The notes beneath the pieces are model-generated. The model was not told the DNA's origin. It was given only the letters and a program-made list of their open reading frames with translations, and ran no database searches. Shown here in pieces: positions 19,335 through 23,566 of a stretch of 33,845 nt of DNA (positions are counted from its first letter, which is position 1; every line of letters begins with the position of its first letter). The translations under genes were made by a program, and so were the position numbers. This DNA is from Bacillota bacterium (GTDB lineage: Bacteria; Bacillota; UBA4882; UBA10575): positions 1 through 33,845 of the forward strand of contig DUNX01000102.1 in NCBI GenBank assembly GCA_012839115.1, in the 5' to 3' direction.

Positions 19335-21773
19335 TTGCAATTCGGTTATTTTGACGATGCCAACAGAGAGTACGTGATCACCACCCCACAGACGCCTTTC
19401 CCCTGGATTAATTACCTGGGAACACAGGATTTTTTTGGACTGATCTCCCATACCGGCGGCGGTTATTGCTTTTACAAGGACGCCCGGTTACGGCGGATTA
19501 CCCGGTACCGGTATAATAATATGCCGCCGGATTCCGGCGGGCGTTATTTTTACCTTTATGAAGGCGGGAAAGTCTGGTCGCCCGCCTGGCGCCCGGTCAA
19601 GGCCGGGCTGGACCATTTTGAATGCCGTCACGGTCTGGGCTATACGAAGATCCAGGGGAGCAAAGACCGGATCAAGACGGAGATCCTGTTCTTTGTCCCA
19701 CCGGACCGGAATTGCGAGGTACACCGGGTCCGCATCACGAACCTGCGGGAGACCGCCGCTTCGCTAAAGCTTTTTTCTTTGGTGGAATTCTGTCTCTGGA
19801 ACGCCTTTGACGATATGACCAATTACCAGCGGAACCTGAACACCGGCGAAGTAGAGGTGGAGGAGGGCGTAATTTACCACAAGACCGAGTACAGGGAACG
19901 CCGGAACCATTATGCTTTTTACGGGGTTAACCACCAGCCTGCCGGTTTTGATACTGACCGGGAGACGTTTTTCGGGCCGGATAACGGGTTTGCGGAACCC
20001 CGGGCGGTAAAAGAGGGAACCCCCGGCAATTCGCTGGCGGAGGGTTGGTCGCCCATTGCCGCCCATTGCTTGGAGGTAAACCTCGCCCCCGGGGAGTCCC
20101 GGGACCTCATCTTTGTTCTCGGTTACGCGGAGAACCCTCCGGAAGAAAAATGGGAGAAACCCGGAGTGATCAATAAAAGCGTCGCCCGGCGCATGCTTGA
20201 GGAGTTTTCCAGTAGCGCCCGGGTGGAAGAGGCCTTGGAGGAATTGAAAGGTTACTGGCAGGAGCTTCTGTCGGTGTTCGAGGTCCAGACCCCGGATGAC
20301 AAGTTCAACCGGATGGTGAATTTCTGGAATCCCTACCAGTGTATGGTCACTTTTAACCTGGCCCGCAGCGCCTCGCTGTTTGAGTCGGGGATCAGCCGCG
20401 GGATCGGGTTTCGCGACTCGAACCAGGATTGCCTGGGGGCGGCGTGCCTCATCCCTGACCGGGTCAGGGAACGGATTCTGGATTTGGCGGCCACCCAGTT
20501 TCCGGACGGCAGCGCCTACCACCAGTACCAGCCGTTGACAAAAAGAGGGAATGCCGATGTTGGCAGCGGTTTTAATGATGACCCGCTCTGGCTCCTCTAT
20601 TCGGTGATCGGGTATATCAAAGAGACCGGCGATTATAGTATCCTCGAGGAAGAGGTGCCTTTTAATAACAACCCGGAGCAAGTCGCCACCCTGCATGAGC
20701 ATTTGCGCCGGTCGTTGCAGCATGTCCGGGACAACCTGGGCCCCCACGGCCTGCCGTTGATTGGCCGTGCCGACTGGAATGACTGCCTTAACCTGAATAC
20801 CTTCTCCGACGACCCGGATGAATCGTTCCAAAGCGGCAAATTCCGGGGAGGGCGGACGGCGGAGTCGGTCTTTATCGCCGCAATGTTTGTTGAGATTACC
20901 GCGCAATACGCGGAGGTCTGCCGGCGTTTGCACTTGGAAGAGGAGGCGGCGGCAGTGGAAGAAGAGGGCCGGCGGATGCGGGAGACGGTGATGAAGTACG
21001 GTTTTGACGGCGAGTGGTTTCTCCGGGCTTATGACGACAGCGGGCGCAAGGTGGGGAGCAAGGAGAATAAGGAAGGGCGGATCTTCCTCGAACCGCAAGG
21101 CTTTTGCGTTATGGCGGGGATCGGTATGGAGGACGGGTCGGCCTTGAAGGCCCTGGAGTCGGTGAAAAAACACCTTGCTACCGACTATGGGATCGAACTG
21201 CACGGCCCGGCCTTTACTTATTACCGCCGGGAGATGGGGGAGATCACTTCTTATCCGCCGGGGTATAAGGAGAATGCCGGGATCTTCTCTCATGCCAATC
21301 CCTGGGTGATTATTGCCGAGACAAAGCTGGACCGGGCGGAGGAGGCCTTTGCCTATTACCGGAAGATTACCCCTGCCTACCGGGAAGATTCTCTTGACCT
21401 GTATAAAATGGAGCCGTATGTCTATGCGCAGATGATTGCCGGTTCCGCTGCCCGCCGGCACGGCGAGGCGAAAAACTCCTGGCTGACCGGGACCGCCGCC
21501 TGGAGTTATGTGGCTGCTACCCAATACTTGCTGGGTATCCGCCCGGATTTTGACGGGCTGGTGGTGGATCCCTGCCTCCCGGCGGGGCTTAAGGAGGTCC
21601 GGGTTTTCCGGAAGTTCCGCGGGGCCGAGTACCGTATTCATATCAATAACCGGCGTTCCGGCGCGTACCGGCTGGTGGTCAATGGTAAGGAGATCCAAGG
21701 CAAGACCATTCCGCCGGCGGCGGCCGGGGAGACGGTAGAGGTTTACTGCGAGACAGGAAGCAGCAGGGTGTAG
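19335..21773 (+). CDS. Cellobiose phosphorylase (glycoside hydrolase family 94)
   Basis: 812 residues, matching the roughly 811 of clostridial cellobiose phosphorylases. It cleaves cellobiose with phosphate to glucose 1-phosphate and glucose in the cytoplasm. The N-terminus [27 protein letters not shown] and [16 protein letters not shown] are close to the Clostridium thermocellum enzyme as remembered. The (alpha/alpha)6 domain carries RDSNQD and GRADWNDC, where D483 is the likely general acid. Chitobiose phosphorylase is a related alternative, judged less likely. The start is TTG 19335: AAAGGAG lies nine bases upstream and the product begins exactly where the family does. It follows the LacI-family gene by 126 bp and no signal peptide is present. 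Confidence 0.93.
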
Positions 21774-21899
21774 TGTAGAGTAGGGAGGACTGACGGTTTT
21801 TTGCCGGATTGCCGGCAGACACGGCGGCGCGCGCGTATGCGCGCGAATCACCGGCGCATGACGTCGTTACTCGGTGCGGGCGGTGCTCGAAACCGGCGT

Positions 21900-22034
21900 G
21901 GTCACCGGGAAACCGGGACCAAGGAATCCGGCCGAGCTGCTAAGGCTCGGTGGGAAGGAAACCGGGTATGGGCCAGCCGGCAATCCGGCAAGGGCAGCCC
22001 CCCGGCGCGCTGGGGTTGAGCGCCGGGCTGGGCC
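21900..22034. ncRNA. Candidate structured RNA, strand uncertain
   Basis: Four stable hairpins occur in about 130 bp. 21900-21920: GGTC/GACC and CCGG/CCGG with one bulged A and a GAAA tetraloop. 21932-21950: CCGAGC/GCTCGG. 21976-21989: GCCGG/CCGGC with loop CAAT. 22001-22027: CCCGGCGC/GCGCCGGG. GGGCCAGCC (21970-21978) can pair imperfectly with GGCTGGGCC (22026-22034), closing hairpins three and four into a multibranch structure. The GAAA loop favours the plus strand. No match to a known RNA was recognised. Confidence 0.35.
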
Positions 22035-22104
22035 TATTTTGGGTGCTTTATTCCAACGGGGCACTTGAACACGAACGACGCTGGTCTCCAACGGCATGCT
22101 TTAG

Positions 22105-22146
22105 GTACGAGTGACGAGCGACGAGTACCGAGTACCGAGTGCCGAG
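22105..22146. repeat. Heptamer tandem repeat, six copies
   Basis: Six consecutive 7-mers of form NNVCGAG (GTACGAG, TGACGAG, CGACGAG, TACCGAG, TACCGAG, TGCCGAG) end exactly at the SpoIIP stop codon at 22147-22149. It is a degenerate microsatellite, three copies with an ACGAG core followed by three with a CCGAG core. Confidence 0.85.
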
Positions 22147-23259
22147 TCAGAGCGAGAAGCTCTGCAGGGTTGCGGCGGGATCGAGGTACGAGGCGAGGAT
22201 TTCGGCGAAGAGTTCTGCGGAGTACAAGGCTTCTTCCAGGGTGGATTTTTCATTGCCGATCTCCACCAGGACTGCTTTTTCATGCAGGTGCTGGTTGTAG
22301 CGGGCATCGGCGAGGATCACCCGGTGGGCCAGATCCGGATAAGCACGGTTTATCGCATCCACCAGTTCCATGGCGAACTGGTGATTTTTTTCCCATTTTG
22401 GGTGCTGGAGGCCGAGACGGTCGGTTCCCACCACCAGAACGATCTTTGCCGCCGGGCGGTTCCGGATCATGACCCGGTGTTCCAAACCGGGAGTTGCATC
22501 CCGGTGGATGTCGAGGATGACATCAAGCTCCGGATGGCGTTCCAGGTACTCCTCGACGGTTGTCAGGGAACGCTGGTAGGAATCTCTGAATGGGTAATGA
22601 TCATGGATGGTGTCACAATGCAGGACAGGGATCCGGTATTTGCTTTCCATCGTCTCCGCCAGGTGCTTTCCTACGAGGACAATATCGCCCTTCCCGTTAA
22701 ACTGGTGGGTTTTGCCACTGGCCGGAAGGTATGATTCGGAAGTGTGGGTATGAAAGATTAAGACCCGGGGCCCGGCTGTTGGTTTTTCTATCTCCCGGGG
22801 CGGGGCGGGCGCCGGGGAGGGAATGGCCGGGACAGGTCTTTCCGGAGGTTTTTTCCCGCCGGCCGGAGGTTGCAACCGGGAGACTCCGGCGCCGGATACG
22901 GGGACCAGGTTTTTTTTCTGTTGATAAAAGGTGGTTACCGGCAGTTGCACCCGGAACAACTCCTGCGGGGTTGGATGTCTGATGCCAACCAAGAAATAGA
23001 GGAAGAGATCAAGTTTTCTTTGTTCCAAGACGAGATCCGGATCGGATTCGGTAATAACCTGCTGGAATCCGGGAATAGTGCTGGTAAAAAAAACTCCGGC
23101 CAGCCGGGAATCAAAGTGAAAATAGCGGCGGAAAAAAACAGAATCACTGGAAAATAAAAGAACACCGGTGAACAGGGTTAAAGTGGCCAGGCTCAGAAGG
23201 AGGAGGGTATCGGTGTTTTTTTCCGGGCGCAAAGGGACCTTTTTTGGGGTCTTCTCCAT
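22147..23259 (-). CDS. spoIIP: Stage II sporulation protein P (cell-wall amidase/endopeptidase)
   Basis: 370 residues from ATG 23259. SpoIIP degrades peptidoglycan during engulfment of the forespore, in complex with SpoIID and SpoIIM. One membrane anchor is visible (about residues 19-37), then a Pro-rich linker (about 135-165) and the amidase domain with FHTHTSESYLP, VILDIHRDA and AVLVEIGNEKSTLEEA, the zinc-site and catalytic motifs of the family. ATG 23259 is preferred because GGAGGG lies four bases upstream; the in-frame ATG 23289 has no SD. The gene is a single minus-strand unit; in B. subtilis spoIIP is under sigma-E, but no sigma-E box was confirmed here. Confidence 0.95.
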   Translation of the reverse strand: MEKTPKKVPLRPEKNTDTLLLLSLATLTLFTGVLLFSSDSVFFRRYFHFDSRLAGVFFTSTIPGFQQVITESDPDLVLEQRKLDLFLYFLVGIRHPTPQELFRVQLPVTTFYQQKKNLVPVSGAGVSRLQPPAGGKKPPERPVPAIPSPAPAPPREIEKPTAGPRVLIFHTHTSESYLPASGKTHQFNGKGDIVLVGKHLAETMESKYRIPVLHCDTIHDHYPFRDSYQRSLTTVEEYLERHPELDVILDIHRDATPGLEHRVMIRNRPAAKIVLVVGTDRLGLQHPKWEKNHQFAMELVDAINRAYPDLAHRVILADARYNQHLHEKAVLVEIGNEKSTLEEALYSAELFAEILASYLDPAATLQSFSL

Positions 23260-23566
23260 TTTTCCCTCCGGTTTTTGCGAGGTTTTCATTCTTTTAAGAA
23301 TATGCGCCGGTTGGCAATTTTAGCACAAGAAGTTGCGGAGAAAAATTTAGTCTTGCAGGAAAAGACCGGGGCGTACCGGATAAGACCGGGGCGCACAGGA
23401 TAAGTTTGCACAGGAAAAGCTAAGACAGGGTGAGGAGGAAAAACGGAGAAAAAAATCCTTGTATGAAATGCCTGCAGGACAAAGAGGCGGAGTTCTGCGC
23501 GCACAGGGGGAGGAGGAAATAAAGGGCAAAATGTCGAAAGGAACAGAACTTAAGGAGGGGAAAGAA
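23260..23566. other. 307-bp divergent region between spoIIP and rex
   Basis: It holds a 20-bp tandem duplication (23362-23401) and several purine-rich SD-like sites on the plus strand before the chosen rex start. No confident promoter for either gene and no palindromic Rex operator (TTGTGAA-TTCACAA type) was found. The rex frame stays open back to TTG 23459 but that stretch reads as low-complexity leader. Confidence 0.45.
23362..23401. repeat. 20-bp tandem duplication
   Basis: AAGACCGGGGCGTACCGGAT (23362-23381) is followed directly by AAGACCGGGGCGCACAGGAT (23382-23401), two mismatches in 20. A decayed third copy (AAGTTTGCACAGGA) follows. Confidence 0.85.

Follow-up and report, generated by a model that had tools for sequence, protein, structure and literature searches.

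A probable decayed copy of a dispersed ~212-nt hairpin repeat behind a phosphorylase gene in a Bacillota bacterium

We analyzed a 33,845-nt stretch of DNA from a Bacillota bacterium (contig DUNX01000102.1 of assembly GCA_012839115.1; hereafter, the window), in which a preliminary description, made from the sequence alone, had singled out a cluster of hairpins at 21900-22034 as a possible undescribed structured RNA. Rather than a free-standing RNA, the cluster is part of a damaged, composite copy of an element present many times over, and the element is probably a dispersed, mobile hairpin repeat of about 212 nt, whose family is placed in sense just behind genes. The family occurs in multiple copies, and compensatory change maintains its fold, which comprises a basal helix (P1), a rod, and a 3' hairpin. 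The copies are found 3' of genes that are unrelated to each other, mostly in the direction of the gene, and the one copy examined for lineage specificity is lineage-specific. In the window copy, a second repeat, module I, substitutes for a portion of the rod, and the remainder of both has been lost.

Results

Folding of the gap between the phosphorylase gene and spoIIP

The hairpins lie between 2 convergent, Pfam-confirmed genes, a GH94 phosphorylase (19335-21773, + strand) and spoIIP (22147-23289, - strand), and the gap flanked by them (21774-22146) has the 373 bp given for it earlier. Folding of 21900-22034 (-76.5 kcal/mol; z = -2.9; 2 of 200 shuffles equally good) reproduced the four reported hairpins, at 21900-21920, 21927-21955, 21972-21995, and 21997-22033, the first with the GAAA loop and bulge described for one of them (a bulged A), and added a fifth small hairpin of 3 bp at 21962-21971. 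The longer-range pairing said to close two of the hairpins did not appear in this fold; 21868-21875 pairs with 21961-21968 only once upstream bases are added, in the fold of 21795-22034 (z = -4.8; 0 of 200 shuffles as good), and this pairing is the join between two unrelated repeats. The frame 21900-22034 also omits the partner of the third hairpin, in that 21976-21992 pairs with 21800-21816, both in the extended fold (21795-22034) and in models R1 and R2. For the gap as a whole, the fold of either strand is better than those of shuffled sequences (z = -3.8, 0 of 100; z = -2.9, 1 of 100). None of the Rfam 15 families reached its gathering threshold anywhere in the window, and the suggested likeness of some short words to cobalamin riboswitches was not upheld, with no cobalamin match either in Rfam 15 or in a permissive search of 21700-22200.

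The intact element, its copies, and covariation

Nine other contigs of the same genome (G000) have matches to the gap sequence, in two modules, and at the matching places the outer frame is the same and the contents differ. An intact copy was found in the sister genome G001 between the same two genes (model R1, 211 bits, L070 1166-1380; the window copy scores 23 bits). The intact element is about 212 nt long and leads from P1 (17-19 bp, TTTGCCGGATTG.../...CAATCCGGCAAG) through a long interrupted rod, with GATATACnnnnGTATTATC or variants as its ending, to a separate 3' hairpin, CCGGCGC/GCGCCGG, which carries GGGGT in its loop. Conservation begins sharply at TTTGCCGGAT and drops past GCGCCGG, where clade-specific extensions are found.

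Model R1 gave 102 matches in 23 of 31 genomes, from 1 to 23 per genome; many copies per genome and a shared fold, the properties by which dispersed stem-loop repeats are recognized, were both present. Several contigs stop inside element copies, as is expected of repeats. At E 1e-6, model R2 matched 33 of the 398 genomes searched within the phylum, under strict filters and with a small number of candidates scored in each genome. All full-length matches above 100 bits in that search came from families f1 and f5; outside these, most matches comprised the inner rod only (about 20-137 of the model), and a few were full-length but weak.

The main alignment, A5, contains 45 of the 102 R1 matches, from two families, after exclusion of short, truncated, or unfetched ones. 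In A5, which was aligned to the model and is biased towards the model structure, pairing is seen in 95.4% of paired cells, and double or compensatory changes in 37 of 52 pairs; none of 500 shuffles reached any of the five measures, and pairing falls to 32-52% when partners are slid out of register. An alignment of 20 copies made with MAFFT only gave two-sided change with pairing kept in 31 of 52 pairs (alignments A1 and A3 consist of 10 and 20 chosen copies, respectively). Covariation among homologues, which the preliminary description had proposed as a check, is accordingly positive for the family that contains the window copy. A CCCC/GGGG pseudoknot candidate in the 3' hairpin is nearly invariant, so that covariation is uninformative on it. 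Rfam placed no family on the element in 15 copy-bearing loci, its sole match being a tRNA, and the open-licence literature in PubMed Central gave, among the matches listed, no description of the family, its motifs, or its kind. The repeat family looks real and unnamed. The proposal of an undescribed structure holds for the family, by its covariation and lack of an Rfam match, and does not hold for 21900-22034 as a unit.

Of two copies in G016, a genome of the same order, one (L103) retains P1, the base of the rod, and the 3' hairpin and has a longer, different distal hairpin, and the other (L143) retains the frame with the rod mostly gone. Judging from this pair, the frame of the element seems to tolerate a swap of its apical part.

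Anatomy and decay of the window copy

The window copy consists of the following parts.

21800-21816, + strand: 5' strand of P1 (TTTGCCGGATTGCCGGC) and 5' edge of the element, 26 nt past the phosphorylase stop codon; the sharp 5' edge is conserved in other copies.
21828-21845, + strand: additional GC hairpin that interrupts the base of the rod as an insertion, seen in the alignment, the sequences, and the fold; absent from the intact G001 copy and present in the C88 copy.
21847-21890, + strand: 5' arm of the rod, with 3' arm and apex missing; near-identical to the intact G001 copy as far as GGTGCTCGA.
21891-21970, + strand: 5' fragment of module I, with the 3' half missing, identified by its C88 match; complete copies run on into the 3' arm.
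21900-21920, + strand: hairpin 1 (GAAA loop), formed locally by the module I arm that has lost its partner; intact module I pairs these bases with its 3' arm.
21927-21955, + strand: hairpin 2, likewise a local fold of bases that intact module I pairs with its 3' arm.
21976-21992, + strand: 3' strand of P1, within hairpin 3 (21972-21995); pairs with 21800-21816, and the equivalent pairs covary in the family (helix 1).
21997-22033, + strand: hairpin 4, the 3' hairpin of the element, core CCGGCGC/GCGCCGG with a GGGGT loop, from the fold and an R1 match (21996-22026, 23 bits); conserved helix 9 of A5.

Model R2 matches the window copy over 21800-22029 (53.2 bits). In a pairwise alignment with the G001 copy, the outer flanks are near-identical, and the rod apex and 3' arm are swapped for about 80 nt of other sequence. 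Helix 9 shows two-sided change in just 2 of its 7 pairs in A5.

The replacing sequence belongs to module I, with window positions 21883-21970 matching the module I copy of contig C88 at 98%. There are 13 near-complete copies of this second repeat, in three congeners, and the module I part of the query had no match in other genomes among 101, in a search that scored only a few candidates for each genome. A single rod is the fold of the C88 copy (-139 kcal/mol, z -7.4); double changes occur in just 6 of 76 pairs of the 13-copy alignment, the sequences being too alike. All but one of the 13 copies sit after the GGGCGG arm of the core, and the remaining one (G002 contig C157) has an inverted arrangement. 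A further long-hairpin repeat of G000 (L329, L332, L335, and L338) has the module I apex GGCTTACGGGACCTCCtTGTCCCGGAAGCC on other arms.

Module I replaced part of the rod and also lost its own 3' half, which makes hairpins 1 and 2 local folds of an arm left unpaired, hairpin 3 one half of P1, and hairpin 4 the sole conserved hairpin. As drawn, 21900-22034 is the debris of two nested repeats and a poor candidate for a small RNA; the window copy is a case of ordinary decay, and the earlier interpretation, while partly correct where the family is concerned, is wrong about this segment as a unit. In the more distant relatives whose spoIIP locus was examined, R1 had no match there.

At 22104-22149 of the window and on contigs C117, C131, and C134 of the same genome, element copies and some gene ends are followed by short repeats in near-tandem order, with the pattern ACGAGYR (CGAGCAACGAGCGACGAG). 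The sequence CGAGCAACG is complementary to CGTTGCTCG of the rod 5' arm.

Placement of the copies behind genes

An upstream ORF is present for 41 of the 45 A5 copies and, by a simple greedy method of ORF calling, has the same direction as the element in 38 of the 41; the three antisense copies are L131, L139, and L141. Gaps between tandem genes contain 29 sense and 2 antisense copies (p = 5e-7), counts that are not fully independent because the copies are related, and other gap types contain 8 copies (convergent) and 1 copy (divergent). The median distance from stop codon to element is 58 nt (37 copies within 300 nt). Pfam confirmed 31 of the 37 upstream ORFs scanned, which range from SecY and Hsp70 to shikimate kinase (the remaining one of the 38, L091, is the GH94 locus), and homology among the 38 upstream genes is confined to 1 pair. 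The window copy, with its short distance from the phosphorylase stop codon, fits the placement of the family. The suggestion of a 3' element of the phosphorylase message accordingly fits insofar as the family sits in sense just behind genes, and fails insofar as 21900-22034 differs from the conserved structure.

Two kinds of signal were sought around the copies. Past the 3' hairpin there is no U-run, the T count of any 6 nt near the element end being 4 or fewer in 42 copies, and intrinsic terminators are neither rarer nor commoner near copies (6 of 37) than at controls (9 of 69), although the detector has little power, finding few even at control gene ends. Without a U-run or a signal over controls, the element was rejected as an intrinsic terminator. 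Likewise, an own promoter was rejected, there being no promoter-like enrichment upstream of 42 copies (mean score 7.29, against 7.26 in shuffles).

RNA or DNA as the folded form

The paired positions of A5 contain 45 G-U pairs and 32 A-C mismatches, not counting pair 1-226 at the edge, where 36 copies have U-G. For a comparison under identical treatment (MAFFT and automatic fold for both), we used 6S RNAs from the same genome group: the G-U:A-C ratio was 38:22 in 38 element copies, those of the 45 in A5 that passed a length filter, and 31:5 in 30 6S RNAs (Fisher p = 0.02), the element count resting on 34 pairs because the automatic fold missed P1. Of the same 38 copies, 28 have a + strand that folds better than their - strand, compared with 30 of 30 6S RNAs. 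Inner rods of other families (n = 22, from 28 rows of alignment A4) gave 8:25, or 8:5 without the two apical pairs, which hold 20 of the 25 A-C cells. By the G-U:A-C counts, Watson-Crick pairing has been maintained with little preference for either strand. On this sequence evidence, such pairing would suit a hairpin of DNA and an RNA equally well, and the better + strand fold would suit RNA. A separate non-coding RNA, one of the readings first offered, is not supported, given the absence of a promoter signal upstream of the copies and a G-U:A-C ratio below that of 6S RNA.

A wider family of inner rods

By itself, the inner rod is found again in several phyla. By record titles, the rod-apex pattern occurs, among the matches listed, in Acidobacteria, Deltaproteobacteria, Rokubacteria, Nitrospirae, Spirochaetes, Clostridia, and others. 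Model R2 gave 30 matches in 28 of 40 apex-pattern loci, 21 of them at least 97 nt long, and at E 0.001 found 2 to 49 matches each in nine genomes, which had been chosen for already having a match. Orientation bias is weaker than for the full element (tandem 30 to 11, convergent 13, divergent 14), as counted over the 68 placeable ones of 119 pattern matches, the others lying at a locus edge (30) or inside an ORF of more than 150 codons (21). On 17 inner-rod loci, Rfam placed no family on the rod and matched other RNAs only; annotation pipelines would therefore pass over a structure that is present in several phyla.

Some inner rods lie between tRNA genes (L154, L155, L170, and L171), and L171 has two in the 16S-23S rRNA spacer. 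Locus L107 (G023) contains three within about 1.1 kb (580-712, 1380-1475, and 1476-1622), two of which are directly adjacent.

Mobility and candidate movers

At locus L109, the element is present in G009, and the same gap is without it in G004, G007, G003, and G008; no element was seen in the first part of the longer gap of G006. This is the sole empty-site locus compared, and its flanks are too diverged to show a junction or target duplication. For 25 of the 45 copies, the copy closest in sequence lies within the same genome. Copies L090 (G003) and L091 (G001) are 95.8% identical, although they come from different genera and lie behind different genes (for a LolA-like protein and GH94, respectively), a hint of transfer or of recent exchange between copies.

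The Y1 transposase (PF01797) was found in 6 of 16 genomes, with a partial match in G002 and none in G000, G001, and G009. Reverse transcriptase (PF00078) occurs in 6 of 29 genomes, including G021 and G024, and was not found in G000, G001, G002, G009, G013, G015, and G025, although such a partner may have been active in the past. None of the 29 genomes has an integron integrase (TIGR02249) above the cut-off; weaker, Xer-like or tyrosine-recombinase matches to this model occur in 29 of 29 genomes and in 14 of 14 control genomes. REP/RAYT, reverse transcriptase, and integron integrase were thus rejected as movers, being absent or below cut-off in the genome of the window.

Explanations considered

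In the reading that we consider probable, that of a mobile hairpin repeat, copies would spread through a folded single-stranded form with the help of some enzyme, structure would count more for spread than end sequence, and insertion or survival would be largely restricted to the 3' ends of genes. Read-through from such a gene would turn the element into a rod-like 3' UTR, which may be a barrier to 3' exonucleases; in the window copy, just P1 and the 3' hairpin would remain of the element. The element may be a parasite that is tolerated at this position, or it may have a selected function in the 3' UTR. The same sense position close after stop codons, the compensatory change in the fold, and the better-folding + strand in 28 of 38 copies would also be explained if the ~212-nt element were a selected, cis-acting 3'-UTR RNA, the folded rod of which protects the upstream mRNA at its 3' end or defines that end, with spread being secondary. 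We regard this as a tentative and rather unlikely alternative: the element is not conserved behind the same gene (four orthologous gaps are empty, and the 38 upstream genes include 1 homologous pair), its G-U:A-C ratio differs from that of equally treated 6S RNA (38:22 against 31:5, p = 0.02), the 3' hairpin has no U-run behind it (never more than 4 T in 6 nt, 42 copies), and intrinsic terminators are no more and no less frequent around the copies (6/37) than at controls (9/69). A duplicated gene for a trans-acting small RNA or riboswitch would account for a conserved structure without a known family, yet it is very improbable considering the many copies per genome, the upstream promoter score (7.29, against 7.26 in shuffles, 42 copies), and a window copy that has lost most of the rod.

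Two further alternatives were considered. P1 can be taken as a terminal inverted repeat, and the element is multi-copy and lineage-specific, as would be a MITE moved by an ordinary transposase that recognizes such repeats; however, a conserved 3' hairpin lies outside P1, and the sense bias is strong, which is unusual for MITEs, leaving little probability for this origin. Sense hairpins behind unrelated genes, with Watson-Crick pairing kept, also recall attC-like sites for site-specific recombination at the 3' ends of gene cassettes. Against such sites, for which we see hardly any likelihood, are the dispersal of the copies, the absence of an integron integrase above the cut-off in 29 genomes (despite weaker Xer-like matches in all 29), and element ends at which no attC core sites were seen. 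A broader conjecture, to which we give a low probability, extends the mobile hairpin reading to a very widespread class of structure-recognized mobile hairpins, in which the inner rod would spread by some enzyme as folded single-stranded DNA and one bacterial class would have made from it the 212-nt element, which would land almost exclusively in sense behind genes. The family offers a testable case: a hairpin-moving system may aim at the 3' ends of genes, or hairpins of this kind may be retained because they serve as portable 3' ends for mRNAs. It is the family, with its sense placement and its mover, more than the window copy, that deserves attention.

Relationship to known systems

The 6S RNA (RF00013), our control, has a similar length and also a rod-like fold; it differs from the element in having one or two matches per genome, an excess of G-U pairs (31:5), and a better + strand in 30 of 30 cases. 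The attC site of integrons is a folded hairpin that lies in sense directly behind genes. The element likewise is a sense hairpin at gene 3' ends (38 of 41 copies), but it is longer, dispersed rather than in arrays, and unaccompanied by an integrase above the cut-off.

Among repeats, REP palindromes (GTAG- and CGTC-tagged) are described, in the available part of the report, as 20-40 bp intergenic sequences proposed to act in mRNA stabilization or termination (PMC3733652). The element shares with them the nature of an intergenic palindromic repeat, whereas its ~212 nt with sharp edges lie outside the 20-40 bp range, and the Y1 transposase that goes with REP/RAYT systems is absent from G000, G001, and G009. 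Excerpts from work on Geobacter and Pelobacter genomes report families of intergenic palindromic multicopy sequences (PMC2700814, PMC2996986, PMC3543383), of which Geobacter class 4, with four CCYTC repeats on one strand and two on the other (PMC2700814), is a possible published relative of the inner rod. Compared by that published description, as far as the excerpt gives it, 0 of 119 inner rods fit the CCYTC count, and identity with class 4 was rejected on this ground. Finally, stem-loop-containing repeat families of bacterial genomes are, according to the accessible portions of 2 reports, dispersed and multi-copy and fold as stem-loops (PMC2267715, PMC1590033), all of which applies to our element. 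Compared in form, the element differs from what those portions describe in its 212-nt multi-part fold, strong covariation, and sense bias. Dispersed hairpin repeats are known, and what is notable here is a large, covarying, sharp-edged one placed in sense behind unrelated genes.
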